Source: Microlunatus phosphovorus NM-1 (lineage in GTDB: Bacteria; Actinomycetota; Actinomycetes; Propionibacteriales; Propionibacteriaceae). From it: a DNA stretch of 64,000 nt. Positions 13,096-19,805 of the stretch are shown piece after piece. A model generated the notes under the pieces. That model made no database searches and was not told where the DNA came from. It saw nothing but the letters and a program-made list of their open reading frames with translations. The position numbers were made by a program, and so were the translations under genes. Location: NCBI RefSeq assembly GCF_000270245.1, contig NC_015635.1:1798001-1862000 (forward strand), in the 5' to 3' direction. Every line of letters starts with the position of its first letter. Position 1 is the stretch's first letter.

Positions 13096-13112
13096 GTCGG
13101 AGGTGGTTGTTG

Positions 13113-16100
13113 ATGGGTTGGAATAATCCGCCGATTTCGTGGCGGGAGTATGAGGCGCGGTTGTCGGGCAAGGTCGGTCCGGATGAGCCGCTGGGTGCGG
13201 AGTGGGCGGGGCGGGACCAGCCGCGGGTGCGGGCTACGTCTGAGTCCGAGCCTGATGAGGCGGCCCCGCTGGATCGCAATGGGGATCCGGTGCCGCCGTG
13301 GAGTCGGCGGCGCGCTGCTACGGTTGCGGGGCCCGCGACTCCCAGCACGACGCCGGTGGTTCCGTACGCGGAGTTGCATTGTCACAGCAACTTCAGCTTC
13401 CTGGACGGGGCCTCCGATCCGGAGGCGCTGATCGCCGAGGCGGTCTCGCTCGGATTGTCCGCGTTGGCGATCACCGATCATGACGGGCTGTATGCGGTGG
13501 CACGGTTCGCCGAGTCGGCGCAGAATTTAACGCGCGCTGGTGCTGCCGCACCGGGAGTCGAGCTGCAGACGATCTACGGTGCCGAGCTGTCGCTGGGACT
13601 GCGTACGCCGCAGAACGGGGTCGCCGATCCGGAGGGTTCGCATCTGCTGGTGCTGGCTCGCGGCGTCGAGGGCTATCACCAGCTGGCCAAGGCGATCACG
13701 GACGCCCAGTTGGACGGCGATGAGAAGGGTCGCCCGCTCTACGATCTCGACCAGCTCGCCGCCACCGCCGAGGGTCACTGGACGATCCTGACCGGCTGTC
13801 GGAAGGGTGCCGTCCGGCAGGCATTGGCAGCCGGCGGGCCGTCGGCTGCTGCCGCGGACTTGGACCGGCTGACCGCCCTGTTCGGTCACGACCGGGTGGT
13901 CGTCGAGCTGTTCGACCACGGTCGCCCTGACGACTCCACGATCAACGACCAGCTGGTCGAGTTGGCTCGCGTGCACGAGCTGCCGGTGGTTGCCACCAAT
14001 GCGGTGCACTATGCCCAGCCCAAGAACTACCGGCTGGCCACGGCGATGGCGGCGGTCCGGGCTCGGCGCAGCCTGGCGGAGATGGACGGCTGGCTGCCGG
14101 TCCCTGGAGCTCATCTGCGGTCGGGAGAGGAGATGACGCAGATCTTTGCCCGCTATCCCGGGGTGATCGAGCAGACCTTGGCGGTGGCCGCAGACTGCGC
14201 CTTCGACCTGAAGCTGGCCAAGCCTCGCTTGCCGAAGCTCGAGGTGCCGGACGGCCACACACCGGCGAGCTATCTGCGGCAGCTGTGCTGGGAAGGATTC
14301 GAGGAGCTCTATCCCGGTGGCGATCGAGCGAAGGCGGCCGAGCGGCTGGAACGCGAGCTGACGGTGATCGAGGGAAAGGACTTCCCTGGCTACTTCCTGA
14401 TCGTGCATGACATGGTTGCCTTTGCGCGCGCACGCGGGATCCTCTGCCAGGGCCGGGGGTCGGCAGCCAACTCGGTGGTCTGCTATGTCCTCAAGATCAC
14501 CGCGGTCGACCCGGTCCTGTACGACTTGCCGTTCGAACGGTTCCTGTCCGCGGCCCGGGACGAGGAGCCCGACATCGACGTCGATTTCGACTCCGACCGG
14601 CGCGAGGAGGTGATCCAAGAGGTCTACCGGCGCTATCGTCGGGACAAGGTCGCCCAGGTCGCCAATGTGATCAGTTACCGACCCAAGTCCGCGGTTCGCG
14701 ACATGGCCAAGGCGCTCGGCTATTCCACCGGTCAGCAGGATGCCTGGTCCAAGCAGATCGACTCCTGGGGACGCATTCCGCCGCGCGACGAGCAGACTCA
14801 CGACATCCCCGAACCGGTGACCGAGCTGGCCAATCAGCTGCTCGGTGCCCCGCGACATCTCGGCATCCATGCCTGCGGGATGGTGCTCACCGAGCGGCCG
14901 GTGGGCGAGGTCGTGCCGATCGAGCGCGGCCGGATGGATGCCCGCACGGTGCTGCAGTGGGACAAGGACAGCTGCGCCTACATGGGGTTGGTCAAATTCG
15001 ACTTTCTCGGCCTGGGAATCCTCAGCGCGATGCAATACACCTTCGACCTGATCGCTGAGCGGGTTGGTGAGTCATGGACGTTGCAATCCATCCCCAAGGA
15101 GGAGCCCGGTGTCTACGACATGCTCTGCCGGGCAGATTCGATCGGAGTGTTCCAGATCGAAAGCCGGGCTCAGATCGGCACCCTGCCCCGGCTGCAGCCG
15201 CGTAAGTTCTACGACCTGGTGATCGAGATCGCGCTGATCCGGCCTGGCCCGATCCAGGGTGGAGCCGTACACCCGTACATCCGGCGCGCGACGGGTCGGG
15301 ATGAGGCAATGCCTCCGCATCCGGCGCTCGAGCCGGTGCTGAAGCGGACGCTGGGAGTGCCGTTGTTCCAGGAGCAGCTGATGCAGATCGCTACCGAAGT
15401 CGGCGGCTGTACCGGCGAGGAGGCTGACCTGCTGCGGCGGGCGATGGGCTCCAAACGCGGGATCGAGAAGATCGAGCGGATCAAGGACAAGCTGTACGAC
15501 GGGATGAAGGAGAACGGCATCGTCGGCGAGGTGGCCGACGGCATCTACGCCCGGATCCAGGCGTTTGCCAGTTTTGGCTTCGCCGAGAGCCACGCGATCT
15601 CTTTTGCTTTGTTGGTGTATGCCAGCTCCTGGCTGAAGCTGCACTATCCGGGCGCGTTCCTGGCCGGACTGCTGCGGGCGCAGCCGATGGGGTTCTACTC
15701 ACCGCAGTCGCTGGTGGCCGACGCCCGGCGGCATGGGGTGGAGGTACGCCGCCCCGACATCGCGCTCTCTGGAATAGATGCCGATCTGGAGCCGCTGGTC
15801 GCGGGGGAGACGATGATCCCCGGTGGAATGAGCAGTTGCCTGGATCGCGACCAGCCCGAAGTGGGAAAGTTCAACCGATCGGCACCGGATCTCAGTGCCG
15901 AGCACCGCAGGGACGGCTCGACGGCGGTCCGACTAGGACTGACCTCGGTCACCAGCATCGGCCGGGCGGTGGCCGAGCGGATCCTGGCCGAACGGGAGCG
16001 GCAGTCGTACGCCGACATCAACGACGTCGTACGCCGCGCCGGCCTGACCGTCGCCCAGACCGAGGCGTTGGCCACCGCCGGAGCGTTCGACAGTTTCGGA

Positions 16101-16634
16101 CTGAGCCGGCGACAGGCGCTGTGGAATGCCGGGTATGCCGACTCCGCCGACACCCTGCCCGGCACCGCGATCGATGCCGCCCCACCGGAGCTGCCCGGGA
16201 TGAGCGATGTCGAGTTGACCGTGGCCGATCTCTGGGCGACCAAGATCTCACCCGGGGAGCACCCGGTCTCCCATCTGCGAGACGCCCTGGACGGATTGGG
16301 CATCCGGCAGGTCGGCACGCTCGGGGAGGCAGACGACACCTGCCGGGTGCGGGTCGCCGGGCTGGTCACTCACCGCCAGCGTCCAGGCACGGCGGGTGGG
16401 GTGACCTTCCTCAACCTGGAGGACGAGACCGGGATGCTCAACATCGTTTGCTCGGCACCGATGTGGAACCGCTATCGCCGGGTCGGCCGGCAGAGCAACG
16501 CGCTGGTCATTCGCGGCCGGGTGGAGCATGCCGACGGCGTCACCAACCTGGTCGCCGAGCGGTTCGATCCGCTCGCCCTGGTGCTGCCGACCGCTAGGGC
16601 TCTCGGCCAGCATCGGTCCCGCGATTTCCACTGA
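13113..16634 (+). CDS. dnaE2: Error-prone DNA polymerase III alpha subunit DnaE2
   Basis: 1173 residues from ATG 13113 (GGAGGT 8 nt upstream). After a low-complexity N-terminus (1-85) comes the PHP domain (YAELHCHSNFSFLDGAS, then ITDHDGLY), followed by the C-family polymerase core: PDIDVDFDSDRREEV carries the catalytic aspartates, and GRGSAANSVVCY and GVPLFQEQLMQIA are family motifs. The C-terminal OB region (VRVAGLVTHRQRPGTAGGVTFLNLEDE) is present. DnaE2 carries out damage-induced translesion synthesis with ImuA' and ImuB. It is third in the SOS cassette, separated from imuB by the inverted-repeat structure; a hairpin follows its stop. Confidence 0.97.
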   Translation: MGWNNPPISWREYEARLSGKVGPDEPLGAEWAGRDQPRVRATSESEPDEAAPLDRNGDPVPPWSRRRAATVAGPATPSTTPVVPYAELHCHSNFSFLDGASDPEALIAEAVSLGLSALAITDHDGLYAVARFAESAQNLTRAGAAAPGVELQTIYGAELSLGLRTPQNGVADPEGSHLLVLARGVEGYHQLAKAITDAQLDGDEKGRPLYDLDQLAATAEGHWTILTGCRKGAVRQALAAGGPSAAAADLDRLTALFGHDRVVVELFDHGRPDDSTINDQLVELARVHELPVVATNAVHYAQPKNYRLATAMAAVRARRSLAEMDGWLPVPGAHLRSGEEMTQIFARYPGVIEQTLAVAADCAFDLKLAKPRLPKLEVPDGHTPASYLRQLCWEGFEELYPGGDRAKAAERLERELTVIEGKDFPGYFLIVHDMVAFARARGILCQGRGSAANSVVCYVLKITAVDPVLYDLPFERFLSAARDEEPDIDVDFDSDRREEVIQEVYRRYRRDKVAQVANVISYRPKSAVRDMAKALGYSTGQQDAWSKQIDSWGRIPPRDEQTHDIPEPVTELANQLLGAPRHLGIHACGMVLTERPVGEVVPIERGRMDARTVLQWDKDSCAYMGLVKFDFLGLGILSAMQYTFDLIAERVGESWTLQSIPKEEPGVYDMLCRADSIGVFQIESRAQIGTLPRLQPRKFYDLVIEIALIRPGPIQGGAVHPYIRRATGRDEAMPPHPALEPVLKRTLGVPLFQEQLMQIATEVGGCTGEEADLLRRAMGSKRGIEKIERIKDKLYDGMKENGIVGEVADGIYARIQAFASFGFAESHAISFALLVYASSWLKLHYPGAFLAGLLRAQPMGFYSPQSLVADARRHGVEVRRPDIALSGIDADLEPLVAGETMIPGGMSSCLDRDQPEVGKFNRSAPDLSAEHRRDGSTAVRLGLTSVTSIGRAVAERILAERERQSYADINDVVRRAGLTVAQTEALATAGAFDSFGLSRRQALWNAGYADSADTLPGTAIDAAPPELPGMSDVELTVADLWATKISPGEHPVSHLRDALDGLGIRQVGTLGEADDTCRVRVAGLVTHRQRPGTAGGVTFLNLEDETGMLNIVCSAPMWNRYRRVGRQSNALVIRGRVEHADGVTNLVAERFDPLALVLPTARALGQHRSRDFH

Positions 16635-16652
16635 TCTCAGCAGCAGATCCGG

Positions 16653-16683
16653 GCAGAAACGTTCCCGCGGGAACGTCTTCTGC
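16653..16683 (+). terminator. Terminator hairpin after dnaE2
   Basis: GCAGAA at 16653 pairs with TTCTGC at 16678-16683 around the perfect core CGTTCCCGCGGGAACG. It lies 19 nt past the dnaE2 stop and probably ends the mutasome transcript. Confidence 0.7.
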
Positions 16684-17054
16684 TCCGGTATGCCATCGGA
16701 TTAGGTGCGCAGGTGTCCTTTCGTTCGATCCCAACCAACATCTGATCACTCTCAATCCTTGGTGCGGCCAGGGTCTGACGATTCCTTGATGACAGGGAGA
16801 GCGCCTATTGTTAAGATCTGCTGGCCCTGCCACGGTCCATGGCGGCGACCGAGATTGTCCAACGTGTTAGTGGGCTGGCCCGTATTCTCCCAACTCGGGT
16901 ACTTGCTGTTTCAGTGGCTATTGGATCGATGTGGTCACCATGTCGAGGCCAATACTGGTGCTGCTCCGGCGCGAGACCTATGCAGCGAAGAGGTCGGCGT
17001 GCCATTATGACTGCACTCTTTGATCCATCCCCGGAGCCTATCGGGAGGTGCCGC
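16684..17054. other. Intergenic stretch of lower GC before the TIR island, with a candidate promoter
   Basis: No convincing gene. The stretch is visibly less GC-rich than the flanking genes. TTGATG (16786) and TGTTAA (16809) lie 17 bp apart and form a plausible promoter for the island. A plus-strand frame open from 16839 has poor codon use before the GTG at 17055. Confidence 0.4.
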
Positions 17055-17321
17055 GTGCCCAATGACCAACCGCCGACCAAGGCGGCACCGGTCGAAGCCA
17101 CCGCGTCCGGCCCAGTGACCACCAGTTTGCGTGTCGAGAAGGACGTCCCGCCCAAGGCAATGCTCGCGTTCGACGGTGGCGGCATGCGCGGCGCGTTTAC
17201 GCTCGGCATGCTGGTGTTCCGGAGGCGTTGGTTCCCACCGGCCCGGATCCTGTCGAAGTACCCCGGACCGCCACTCGCGTTCCGTTCAGTCTCAGAGGCT
17301 GCGATTGGAGGGAGCAGGTAG
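17055..17321 (+). pseudogene. Truncated patatin-like phospholipase, N-terminal remnant
   Basis: 88 codons from GTG 17055 (GGGAGG upstream). Residues about 35-52 (MLAFDGGGMRGAFTLGML) are the strand and oxyanion loop G-G-G-x-R-G that opens patatin domains, after a 34-residue lead. The frame then leaves the family: no G-x-S-x-G nucleophile or D-G motif follows, so a large internal deletion or frameshift is likely. Its TAG stop (17319-17321) overlaps the GTG of the TIR gene (TAGTG), so the remnant may still work as a leader cistron for it. Patatin phospholipases are effectors in several anti-phage systems. Confidence 0.6.
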
Positions 17322-18379
17322 TGAGTGACAAGATCTTCGTCTCTTACTCGCGCAAGAATGAGATAGAGGTGCGTCGGCTGGTCGACCGTTTGAGAAAGGA
17401 CGGCTTCGACGTCTGGTTCGATCGAGACGCCATCTTGGCGGGCCAGAAATGGGCCGACGAGATACGTTGTGCGGTCGAGGATGCCCGAGCCGTGCTGGTC
17501 TGCCTCTCCTCTCAGTGGATTCATCAGAAGGGCTATGTCCAAAAGGAGCTGCGGATGATCGTCGAGGCATCGCAAGTGAGGCCGTGGAATGACACCTGGA
17601 TTATTCCCGTCAAGCTAGATCATCTCGTTGACCTTCCCCAGCAACTGAGGGATCTGCATGCAGTCCAACTCGACACGGAGTCCGGCTACCAGAAGCTGAC
17701 GACCGCCCTCGGTGCCGTTGTCCGTGCTGCCCCTGGCGCTCCGCCCGTCGACGAGGCCTCTGCCCCTAGCGCCTTCGAGGAGTTCTTTATCGACGCGATC
17801 GAACGCGGAGCCGTGATCCACTCGGATCCGTGGATGGAGGCCGGCAGCCAGGAGGAGCTCGAGTTCAAGCAGTTGCTGCGGGGCCGGATGGACTCTGGGA
17901 TCGATGCGATGGAGGCGAGAGACTACGCTAAGGTGTTGACCGTCTGGCAGCCGCTTCGTGAGCACCGTCTTTTTGACCTCGATAGTCCGGTGTGGGACGG
18001 ACGCCCGTACTTCCTCGCTCAAATCCTGTCCGGGAAGTGTCATGTCTTCATCGCACTGGCGCAGCTGAATCAGCAGGATGCATCGATCGGCGTCGAGGCG
18101 CTCAACTCATTTGCCGAGCTCGTGAGACAACCCCCGTTTTCGATGAAGGGAGCGAGTTCAGATCGGCTCTCGCCAGAGAGTGCGGCAATCCACAATCTGA
18201 ACTACAAGGACACGCTCGCCTTCGCGCTTGAGTGGTTCACCGGCTGGACTCCGTCGGTCTTCCAGAGCTTCTACGGGGTGCCGCAGCAGCAGGTCCGGGA
18301 CGTCATCCATAGGGCAGAGACGAGAATCAGGGAGATCGACTTCCTCCTCGAGAGGTTTCCGATTCAGCACACCGACTAG
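17321..18379 (+). CDS. TIR-domain protein with an uncharacterised C-terminal domain
   Basis: 352 residues from GTG 17321 (GGAGGGAG 8 nt upstream). Residues 1-130 are a TIR domain: KIFVSYSRKNE (strand A), GFDVWFDRDAILAGQKWADEI, ARAVLVCLSSQW and GYVQKELRMIV, where Glu76 fits the catalytic glutamate of NAD-cleaving TIRs. A linker (about 135-150) leads to a mainly helical domain (150-352), with a possible helical-repeat stretch at AMEARDYAKVLTVWQPL; I do not recognise it. Bacterial TIR proteins often deplete NAD+ or make cyclic-ADPR signals in phage defence. The neighbouring patatin remnant and Fe-S fragment mark an accessory insertion. Cytoplasmic; activator and partner unknown. Confidence 0.85.
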   Translation: MSDKIFVSYSRKNEIEVRRLVDRLRKDGFDVWFDRDAILAGQKWADEIRCAVEDARAVLVCLSSQWIHQKGYVQKELRMIVEASQVRPWNDTWIIPVKLDHLVDLPQQLRDLHAVQLDTESGYQKLTTALGAVVRAAPGAPPVDEASAPSAFEEFFIDAIERGAVIHSDPWMEAGSQEELEFKQLLRGRMDSGIDAMEARDYAKVLTVWQPLREHRLFDLDSPVWDGRPYFLAQILSGKCHVFIALAQLNQQDASIGVEALNSFAELVRQPPFSMKGASSDRLSPESAAIHNLNYKDTLAFALEWFTGWTPSVFQSFYGVPQQQVRDVIHRAETRIREIDFLLERFPIQHTD

Positions 18380-18399
18380 CGCCGCCCGCTTTCGCCGGA

Positions 18400-18576
18400 C
18401 GGACTGCACCGCGCTCCAAGGAAGCCGTCGCCACCGGAGCCGACCAGATCGCCGTCGGCTGCCCCTTCTGCCGCGTGATCCTCGCTGACGGCCTCACCGC
18501 CCAGCAAGCTATCGGCCAAGCCCGCGAAGACATCGAAGTCCTCGACATCGCCCAACTCCTGCTCACCTCCGTTTAA
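18400..18576 (+). pseudogene. C-terminal fragment of an (Fe-S)-binding oxidoreductase subunit
   Basis: An in-frame stretch without a start codon, from about 18400 to the TAA at 18574-18576. It reads RSKEAVATGADQIAVGCPFC, then ADGLTAQQA and VLDIAQLLL. This matches the extreme C-terminus of the large actinobacterial (Fe-S)-binding proteins related to heterodisulfide reductase or glycolate oxidase subunits, including the G-C-P-F-C cysteine pair. The rest of the gene is missing. It begins 20 nt after the TIR stop and ends in the convergent antiporter stop, which suggests that the TIR island replaced or cut this gene. Confidence 0.7.
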
Positions 18577-19805
18577 ACGGGGCGAGACGGACTGACCTCC
18601 GACGTCGGAGGATCCAACCGATCCTTGTTGTGCCCAGCCAGCAGGGTTGCCGCCAACGGCATGGTCAGGACGGTGATCGCCCCGCCCGCCACCAGCACGG
18701 ATGCGTTCGCCGGGCTCATCTGGCCCGCCGACACAGCGGTAGAAGTGACCGCCACGATGATCGGCAGCCCGGTTGCCGCGAAGAGCCCGATCCGGGCGCT
18801 GTCCCGGGTGTCGAATATCTGCTGACGCGTGGTCGGATCGCGCTCCAGTTTGCTGGAAAGGAACACGGGCAGACCGCGGACGAGCATGATCATCAGCACG
18901 AACAGGACCAGCGTGAGCGGTTGCGCGGCGACCGCGGCGGGGTCGATCGCCATTCCTGAGGTGACGAAGAAGACCGGGATCAGCAAGCCGAAGGCCAAGC
19001 CGTTGAGCTTGTGCTCCAACTGCTCATCGCCGCTGGGGAGTGCTCGGCGGAGGATGAAGCCGGCGGCGAAGGCGCCGAGCACCACATCGAGATCGAAGAC
19101 CTCGGCCAGGACGCAGAGCGCGACCAGCAACAGCACCGTGAGCCGGACGGTGGTCTGTCCGGTGGTCTCCGACCCCGCCCGGATCAGTGACATCATCTTC
19201 GAGGTCTCGCGACGGATCCGCCGCCAGGGCAGGGTGATAGCGGCTGCGAGGAGCGCGAACATGATCACCGCCACCAGTGCTTCGGCAGGTCCGCCGGTGC
19301 CGAGCAGGACCGCCATCGCGATCACCGGGCCGAGTTCCCCGTACGCGCCGTGGTTCATCACCGACTTCCCGACCGGGCTGGTGAGCAGTCCGCCGTCCTT
19401 CAGAATCGGCAGCAGCGTGCCCAGCGCCGTCGAGCACAGGGCGATCGCCAGCGCCACCTCGGCATGGAGGGCTCCGGTCAGGGAGACGAGGAAGACCAGG
19501 GCGAGCGCCGTGCCAAGGCAGATCGCCCAGGTGACGAGGGCTCGGCGACCCGCTCGTCCGGTCAGTTCGGAGAGCTCGATCTCATAGCCGGCCAGCAGAA
19601 ACAGCATGCCGAGACCGAGCTCGCGGAGCAGCCCGATCGCGTCGTCGGTTGTCGCAAGCCCCATCCCGAAGGGTCCGATGATCACGCCTGCCACCAGCAG
19701 GATGACGACCTCGGGGACCAGGCGGCGTGGCACCAACCCCGCGAGCAGCGGAGCTGCCACGGCGCAGATGGCGATCCACAACAGCGATATGAATGATGAC
19801 TCCAC
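18573..19805 (-). CDS. Cation:proton antiporter, CPA2 family
   Basis: 410 residues, nearly all hydrophobic, with 11-13 predicted membrane segments. It fits the Na+/H+ exchanger (KefB/GerN-like) fold: VPEVVILLVAGVIIGPFGMGL in helix 2, GLGMLFLLAGYEIEL in helix 3, and VLGAFAAGFILRRALPSG near the ion site. No C-terminal TrkA-N or TrkA-C domain is attached, so this is the short antiporter-only form. It exchanges Na+ or K+ for H+ at the plasma membrane. It is a single gene; its stop overlaps the Fe-S gene scrap by a few bases. Confidence 0.9.
   Translation of the reverse strand: MESSFISLLWIAICAVAAPLLAGLVPRRLVPEVVILLVAGVIIGPFGMGLATTDDAIGLLRELGLGMLFLLAGYEIELSELTGRAGRRALVTWAICLGTALALVFLVSLTGALHAEVALAIALCSTALGTLLPILKDGGLLTSPVGKSVMNHGAYGELGPVIAMAVLLGTGGPAEALVAVIMFALLAAAITLPWRRIRRETSKMMSLIRAGSETTGQTTVRLTVLLLVALCVLAEVFDLDVVLGAFAAGFILRRALPSGDEQLEHKLNGLAFGLLIPVFFVTSGMAIDPAAVAAQPLTLVLFVLMIMLVRGLPVFLSSKLERDPTTRQQIFDTRDSARIGLFAATGLPIIVAVTSTAVSAGQMSPANASVLVAGGAITVLTMPLAATLLAGHNKDRLDPPTSEVSPSRPV

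Follow-up and report, generated by a model that had tools for sequence, protein, structure and literature searches.

TIR, patatin, SLATT, TPR-S and STAND are all known modules of conflict systems, and in Thoeris a TIR enzyme acts with a second effector. Here we describe a locus of Microlunatus phosphovorus NM-1 in which a TIR gene starts on the stop codon of a damaged patatin gene. It lies in a window of 64,000 nucleotides, positions 1,798,001-1,862,000 of one 5,683,123-base contig (NC_015635.1). An earlier note on this DNA, made from the letters alone, had suggested a former two-effector or effector-sensor system that lost its phospholipase half. The patatin remnant is real and TIR-patatin pairs occur elsewhere; these two particular genes may once have been partners. 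To the reading that the intact TIR gene and the ruined patatin are the remains of a TIR-patatin defence cassette we give about an even chance.

The nearest solved TIR domain, both in sequence and in fold, belongs to the short prokaryotic Argonaute and TIR-APAZ (SPARTA) NADase, and Glu76 of the window protein aligns with Glu77 of the TIR-APAZ chain (residue number by manual count). Unlike in SPARTA, none of the immediate neighbours identified (dnaE2, the patatin remnant, an Fe-S gene scrap and an antiporter gene) is an Argonaute gene. No APAZ domain follows the window TIR either: the rest of the protein is modelled as all-helical and its profile found no PDB chain at E <= 10, though TIR-APAZ chains were in the library. 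A second likeness is to the CapV type of the cyclic oligonucleotide-based antiphage signalling system (CBASS). The full-length relatives of the remnant are hit by PADLOC phospholipase effector models (E 9.6e-42) and by NCBIfam CBASS_lipase (E 2.3e-33), in the latter case with 115.8 of 200 bits, below its cut-off. In contrast to CBASS, the patatin gene here is dead, its neighbour is a TIR gene and no CD-NTase gene stands among the immediate neighbours, the wider window not having been searched for CD-NTases. Patatins of the remnant's type also share gene runs with TIR, TPR-S, SLATT, nSTAND1 and WD40 at four loci (L067, L068, L110 and L062), as in SLATT/TPR-S/nSTAND1 conflict systems, whereas the window locus has only the TIR gene and the dead patatin. 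To Thoeris there is a slight likeness: the type III ThcB4 model matches weakly and in the TIR part only (E 8.4e-08), with 31.4 bits against a cut-off of 220, and no SIR2 or other ThsA-type gene occurs among the immediate neighbours identified.

Results

The 88-codon open reading frame (ORF) upstream of the TIR gene had been taken for a truncated patatin-like gene in the earlier note, which allowed that these codons might have no similarity to patatins at all. The similarity was found. Searched as a region of a longer string, which lets full-length proteins pass by length, the remnant drew 41 candidates, of which 11 patatins of 367-389 residues matched at E <= 10; E was < 0.005 for ten of these and 4e-12 for the best. 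Pfam gave a weak match (17 residues, E 0.013). Against the 11 patatins, combined in a profile of 372 positions, the remnant aligned as two colinear blocks, separated by an internal loss: block one (KAMLAFDGGGMRGAFTLGML) and block two (VFRRRWFPPARILSKYPGPPL). In the patatin P0127 the second block begins 58 residues past the end of the first. Compared with six patatins one by one, block two and its tail (VFRRRWFPPARILSKYPGPPL) scored higher each time than every one of 1000 shuffles. Because the two blocks match in order and the second beats all shuffles, the ORF is a patatin that lost 54-58 internal residues in frame and was truncated by about 70 per cent; the internal deletion perhaps fell between two Leu-Gly codon pairs.

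The catalytic elements of patatins are a GXSXG serine motif and a later DG[GA] motif. The lost middle segment carries GTSTGA in all 11 relatives and the lost end, beyond profile position 107, carries FVDGG in all 11. GXSXG is absent from the remnant, whose sole DGG belongs to an N-terminal DGGGMRG, and the later DG[GA] motif is gone. The N-terminus VPNDQPP resembles that of P0129 (MPTDDPP), which supports the GTG at 17055 as the original start.

The TIR gene begins inside the stop codon of this remnant, as the sequence had first suggested: the TAG at 17319-17321 and the GTG at 17321-17323 have one base in common (TAGTG), and GGAGGG stands 6 bases upstream of the TAG, ahead of the TIR start. 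Intact TIR motifs and a candidate Glu76 had been claimed for its product, and comparison upheld both. The family is small, with 16 other proteins among the matches listed; at position 76 a first alignment has Glu in all of its 10 rows, window protein included, and a second has it in all 15 other members covering the site. The residues most conserved in the family are retained. At the aligned position of SPARTA TIR-APAZ, E77A is described as a catalytic mutant (PMC10474274). Since Glu76, the likeness to SPARTA and the full length of the gene point the same way, the protein can most likely still cleave NAD+ once its helical domain is triggered. Sampling of 293 genomes from the order, 396 from the phylum and 394 from the class found no other full member of the TIR family.

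The remaining 200 or so residues, called unrecognised before, stayed so. None of ten members gave a Pfam match to this domain better than E 0.06, PF20308 (TPR-S) did not match any of the ten, and hhalign against TPR-S returned a probability of 0.36 per cent from shallow alignments. The model is an all-helical, TPR-like repeat with a predicted local distance difference test (pLDDT) score of 92. The 17 proteins that keep the domain include a short form of the window's own protein. Judged by the family libraries used, it appears to be an undescribed domain lying outside them.

A search for related loci with a full patatin plus a TIR gene, which the earlier note had recommended, found them at four of six near loci, one of the four in the window's own genome, against none of eight distant ones. 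The six, with 38-46 per cent identity to P0127, are its closest matches among the patatin loci that were readable, taken from a phylum sample at E <= 1e-60 (2 of 296 genomes), an order sample at E <= 1e-30 (3 of 391) and the two best of 240 plasmid records; the own genome occurs twice in these and was counted once. At each of the four the TIR gene lies within the same gene run as the patatin. In the own genome (L067, at about 978 kb) the gene of a 590-residue patatin overlaps the start of a TIR-response-regulator gene by four bases, and a gene of 982 residues with TPR-S and SLATT domains lies upstream of the patatin. In a genome of the same order (G093, locus L108) a 609-residue TIR ORF begins 6 bases past the patatin, and in G330 (L068) a TIR-nSTAND1-WD40 gene ends 16 bases ahead of it. 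The run on a Rhodococcus plasmid (L110) reads TIR-nSTAND1-WD40, TPR-S, patatin, where the TIR part rests on a custom TIR profile (E 2.4e-08) and is not among Pfam's best 25 of 53 families. As for the other two, a Rhizobium plasmid (L062) has an annotated TIR gene 3.4 kb off on the opposite strand, and the locus in G1049 (L109) has no TIR gene.

The eight distant patatin loci (31-36 per cent identity) were drawn from the other 18 plasmid records listed, and two are near-copies from S. meliloti; three of the eight adjoin CD-NTase or nucleotidyltransferase genes. No TIR match was obtained in the roughly 107 kb examined at these loci, nor in 31 same-genus stretches (472 kb). TIR_2 matches number 4, 3, 2 and 2 in the four genomes of near-patatin loci. 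Because the genomes hold so few each, direct TIR neighbours in three of the four go far beyond chance, though clustering in defence islands may contribute.

Some of these loci have features of their own. L067:5654-11391 (about 977.6-983.4 kb of the own genome, outside the window) is probably an intact three-gene set of TPR-S/SLATT, patatin and TIR-response regulator, its patatin retaining GTSTGA and a DGG motif. At L108:4247-7345 in G093 a second TIR gene, ThsB-like and of 1032 residues, lies on the opposite strand, and the 609-residue TIR ORF appears, by eye, to be frame-shifted past about residue 250. On Rhizobium leguminosarum plasmid p_2 (L062:4166-8584) a SLATT gene, a muramidase gene with a peptidoglycan-binding domain, the patatin and a TPR-S gene are consecutive, an unusual setting for a defence-type patatin.

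The whole locus is an island of about 1.9 kb between dnaE2 and a sodium/hydrogen exchanger gene (Table 1). It holds, in order, a 420-base spacer, the 88-codon ORF, the 352-codon TIR gene and the 3' scrap of an Fe-S gene. Its placement between dnaE2 and such a scrap, as first described, is confirmed by the genus: the Fe-S match stands in a longer frame in 18 of 19 other genomes, and the own genome keeps only the last 54 or so codons. Two sister Fe-S genes tested are CCG/Fer4 Fe-S proteins. In 17 sister stretches, with 0.5-12 kb of DNA each beyond dnaE2 (<1.3 kb in three), no antiporter was found near that gene, and none was found near the Fe-S gene in 14. Because the Fe-S gene is cut short and the antiporter was not found in the sister surroundings searched, the junction is a scar.

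Table 1. Features of the island and its flanks (window positions)
Feature	Position	Strand	Evidence
dnaE2, left flank	13107..16634	+	Pfam DNA_pol3_alpha, finger, PHP, HHH_6
Patatin remnant, 88 codons from GTG, without GXSXG	17055..17321	+	full-length patatin matches, two-block alignment
Remnant residues 29-53 (block 1), aligned to positions 3-27 of the patatin profile, with DGGGMRG	17139..17213	+	profile alignment
Remnant residues 50-75 (block 2), aligned to positions 82-107 of the patatin profile	17202..17279	+	profile alignment
TIR gene, 352 residues, GTG start overlapping remnant stop	17321..18379	+	ORF full length, no internal stop
TIR domain, residues 5-125	17333..17695	+	Pfam TIR_2 E 1.7e-22
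Glu76 codon, predicted catalytic residue	17546..17548	+	alignments, SPARTA Glu77 position
C-terminal helical domain, residues 146-352	17756..18376	+	kept in 17 proteins; model pLDDT 92
Fe-S oxidoreductase-type gene, 3' scrap, ~54 codons	~18412..18576	+	comparison with genus genomes
Sodium/hydrogen exchanger (antiporter), right flank	18573..19805	-	Pfam Na_H_Exchanger E 6.7e-37

The lower local guanine-plus-cytosine (GC) content that had been reported holds for the TIR gene (0.594) and for the spacer at 16635-17054 (0.576) but not for the patatin remnant (0.667), which is level with dnaE2 and the antiporter (both 0.669). Therefore, the GC-poor character is limited to part of the island. At third codon positions the remnant (0.78) and the TIR gene (0.75) are similar, and the spacer, with 0.60, 0.57 and 0.56 by position, has a noncoding appearance. 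A strong hairpin at 16643-16693, after the dnaE2 stop (-30.9 kcal/mol, z -4.4), has 23-base exact matches at two further sites of the genome and is either a terminator or a dispersed palindrome.

Discussion

If the two genes once formed a cassette, infection is predicted to be sensed by the helical C-terminal domain of the TIR protein. This TPR-like domain would keep the TIR domain switched off as long as no cue, phage-derived or from a partner, is bound. On binding, TIR domains would assemble and Glu76 would cleave NAD+, starving the cell or producing an ADP-ribose signal. The lost patatin would have been a second effector, a CapV-like phospholipase that responded to the same event or to the TIR product; the TIR gene itself would now work alone or be on its way to loss. 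It is tempting to go further and propose, tentatively and at less than an even chance, that TIR and CapV-like patatin form a recurring two-component immune unit in which diverse TIR partners (TIR-response regulator, TIR-nSTAND1-WD40, TIR-TPR-like sensor) serve one patatin type; here the phospholipase would have been lost and a TIR protein with a new sensor left alone.

Several observations weigh against a cassette. Two of the six near patatins (L062 and L109) have no TIR gene in their own run, and the count of four in six leaves out the neighbourhoods of P0127-P0137 and of the other TIR-family members. The C-terminal domain of the window TIR protein occurs at none of the four TIR-linked loci. 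The patatin tree does not unite the TIR-linked patatins, and that of G330 groups with two S. meliloti patatins lacking a TIR neighbour; thus partners may be exchangeable, or four in six may overstate how tight the link is. Both kinds of gene may also cluster in defence islands, which would raise the number of chance neighbours. Finally, the last 14 residues of the remnant match patatin C-termini no better than chance would (719 of 2000 shuffles score as high), and the deletion itself may therefore have produced the TAGTG overlap.

These last residues, with no recognisable patatin in them, also suit a different history, which we consider possible though somewhat doubtful: a stand-alone, single-gene TIR system landed in a patatin pseudogene, or was joined to it by deletion, so that their adjacency is an accident of a rearrangement scar and the two were never partners. 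The scarred junction, with its Fe-S gene of about 54 codons and an antiporter not found beside the sister dnaE2 (17) and Fe-S (14) genes, agrees with this, as does a GC-poor TIR gene and spacer next to a remnant that is not GC-poor. However, third-position GC is close in the two genes, the TIR start falls exactly on the remnant stop and TIR genes adjoin related patatins at four of six loci, all of which speaks against this history.

The same exact overlap could mean that the shortened patatin ORF was retained as a leader, its translation feeding ribosomes to the TIR start on which it terminates. The ORF has kept its start, with a purine-rich GGGAGG ahead of it, and its internal loss is in frame. 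A single deletion is in frame by chance one time in three, though, and the TIR gene has its own GGAGGG, so we regard a retained leader as unlikely. Less probable still is that both genes are dead, the TIR gene being a recent and functionless arrival in early decay. It is flanked by two gene wrecks and found in no other sampled genome, but it is full length, has no internal stop and retains its most conserved residues.

As for precedent, no description of a TIR-patatin pair was found in the open-access literature searched, subscription papers being mostly outside its scope. A discussion of TIR and SLATT in conflict systems (PMC7159879) does not use the word patatin in its main text, and where patatin, Thoeris and TIR come together in an open-access text, the patatin mentioned concerns CBASS. 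Absence from the open literature is not proof that the pairing is unpublished.

In summary, the locus offers a testable pairing of TIR and CapV-like patatin, for which the same genome provides a natural and apparently intact example (at about 0.98 Mb). It also presents a compact domain that is linked to TIR and missing from Pfam. A true pairing would bring two known suicide chemistries of bacteria, the loss of NAD+ and the cleavage of membrane lipids, into one unit and raise the question of whether a TIR product can activate a patatin.
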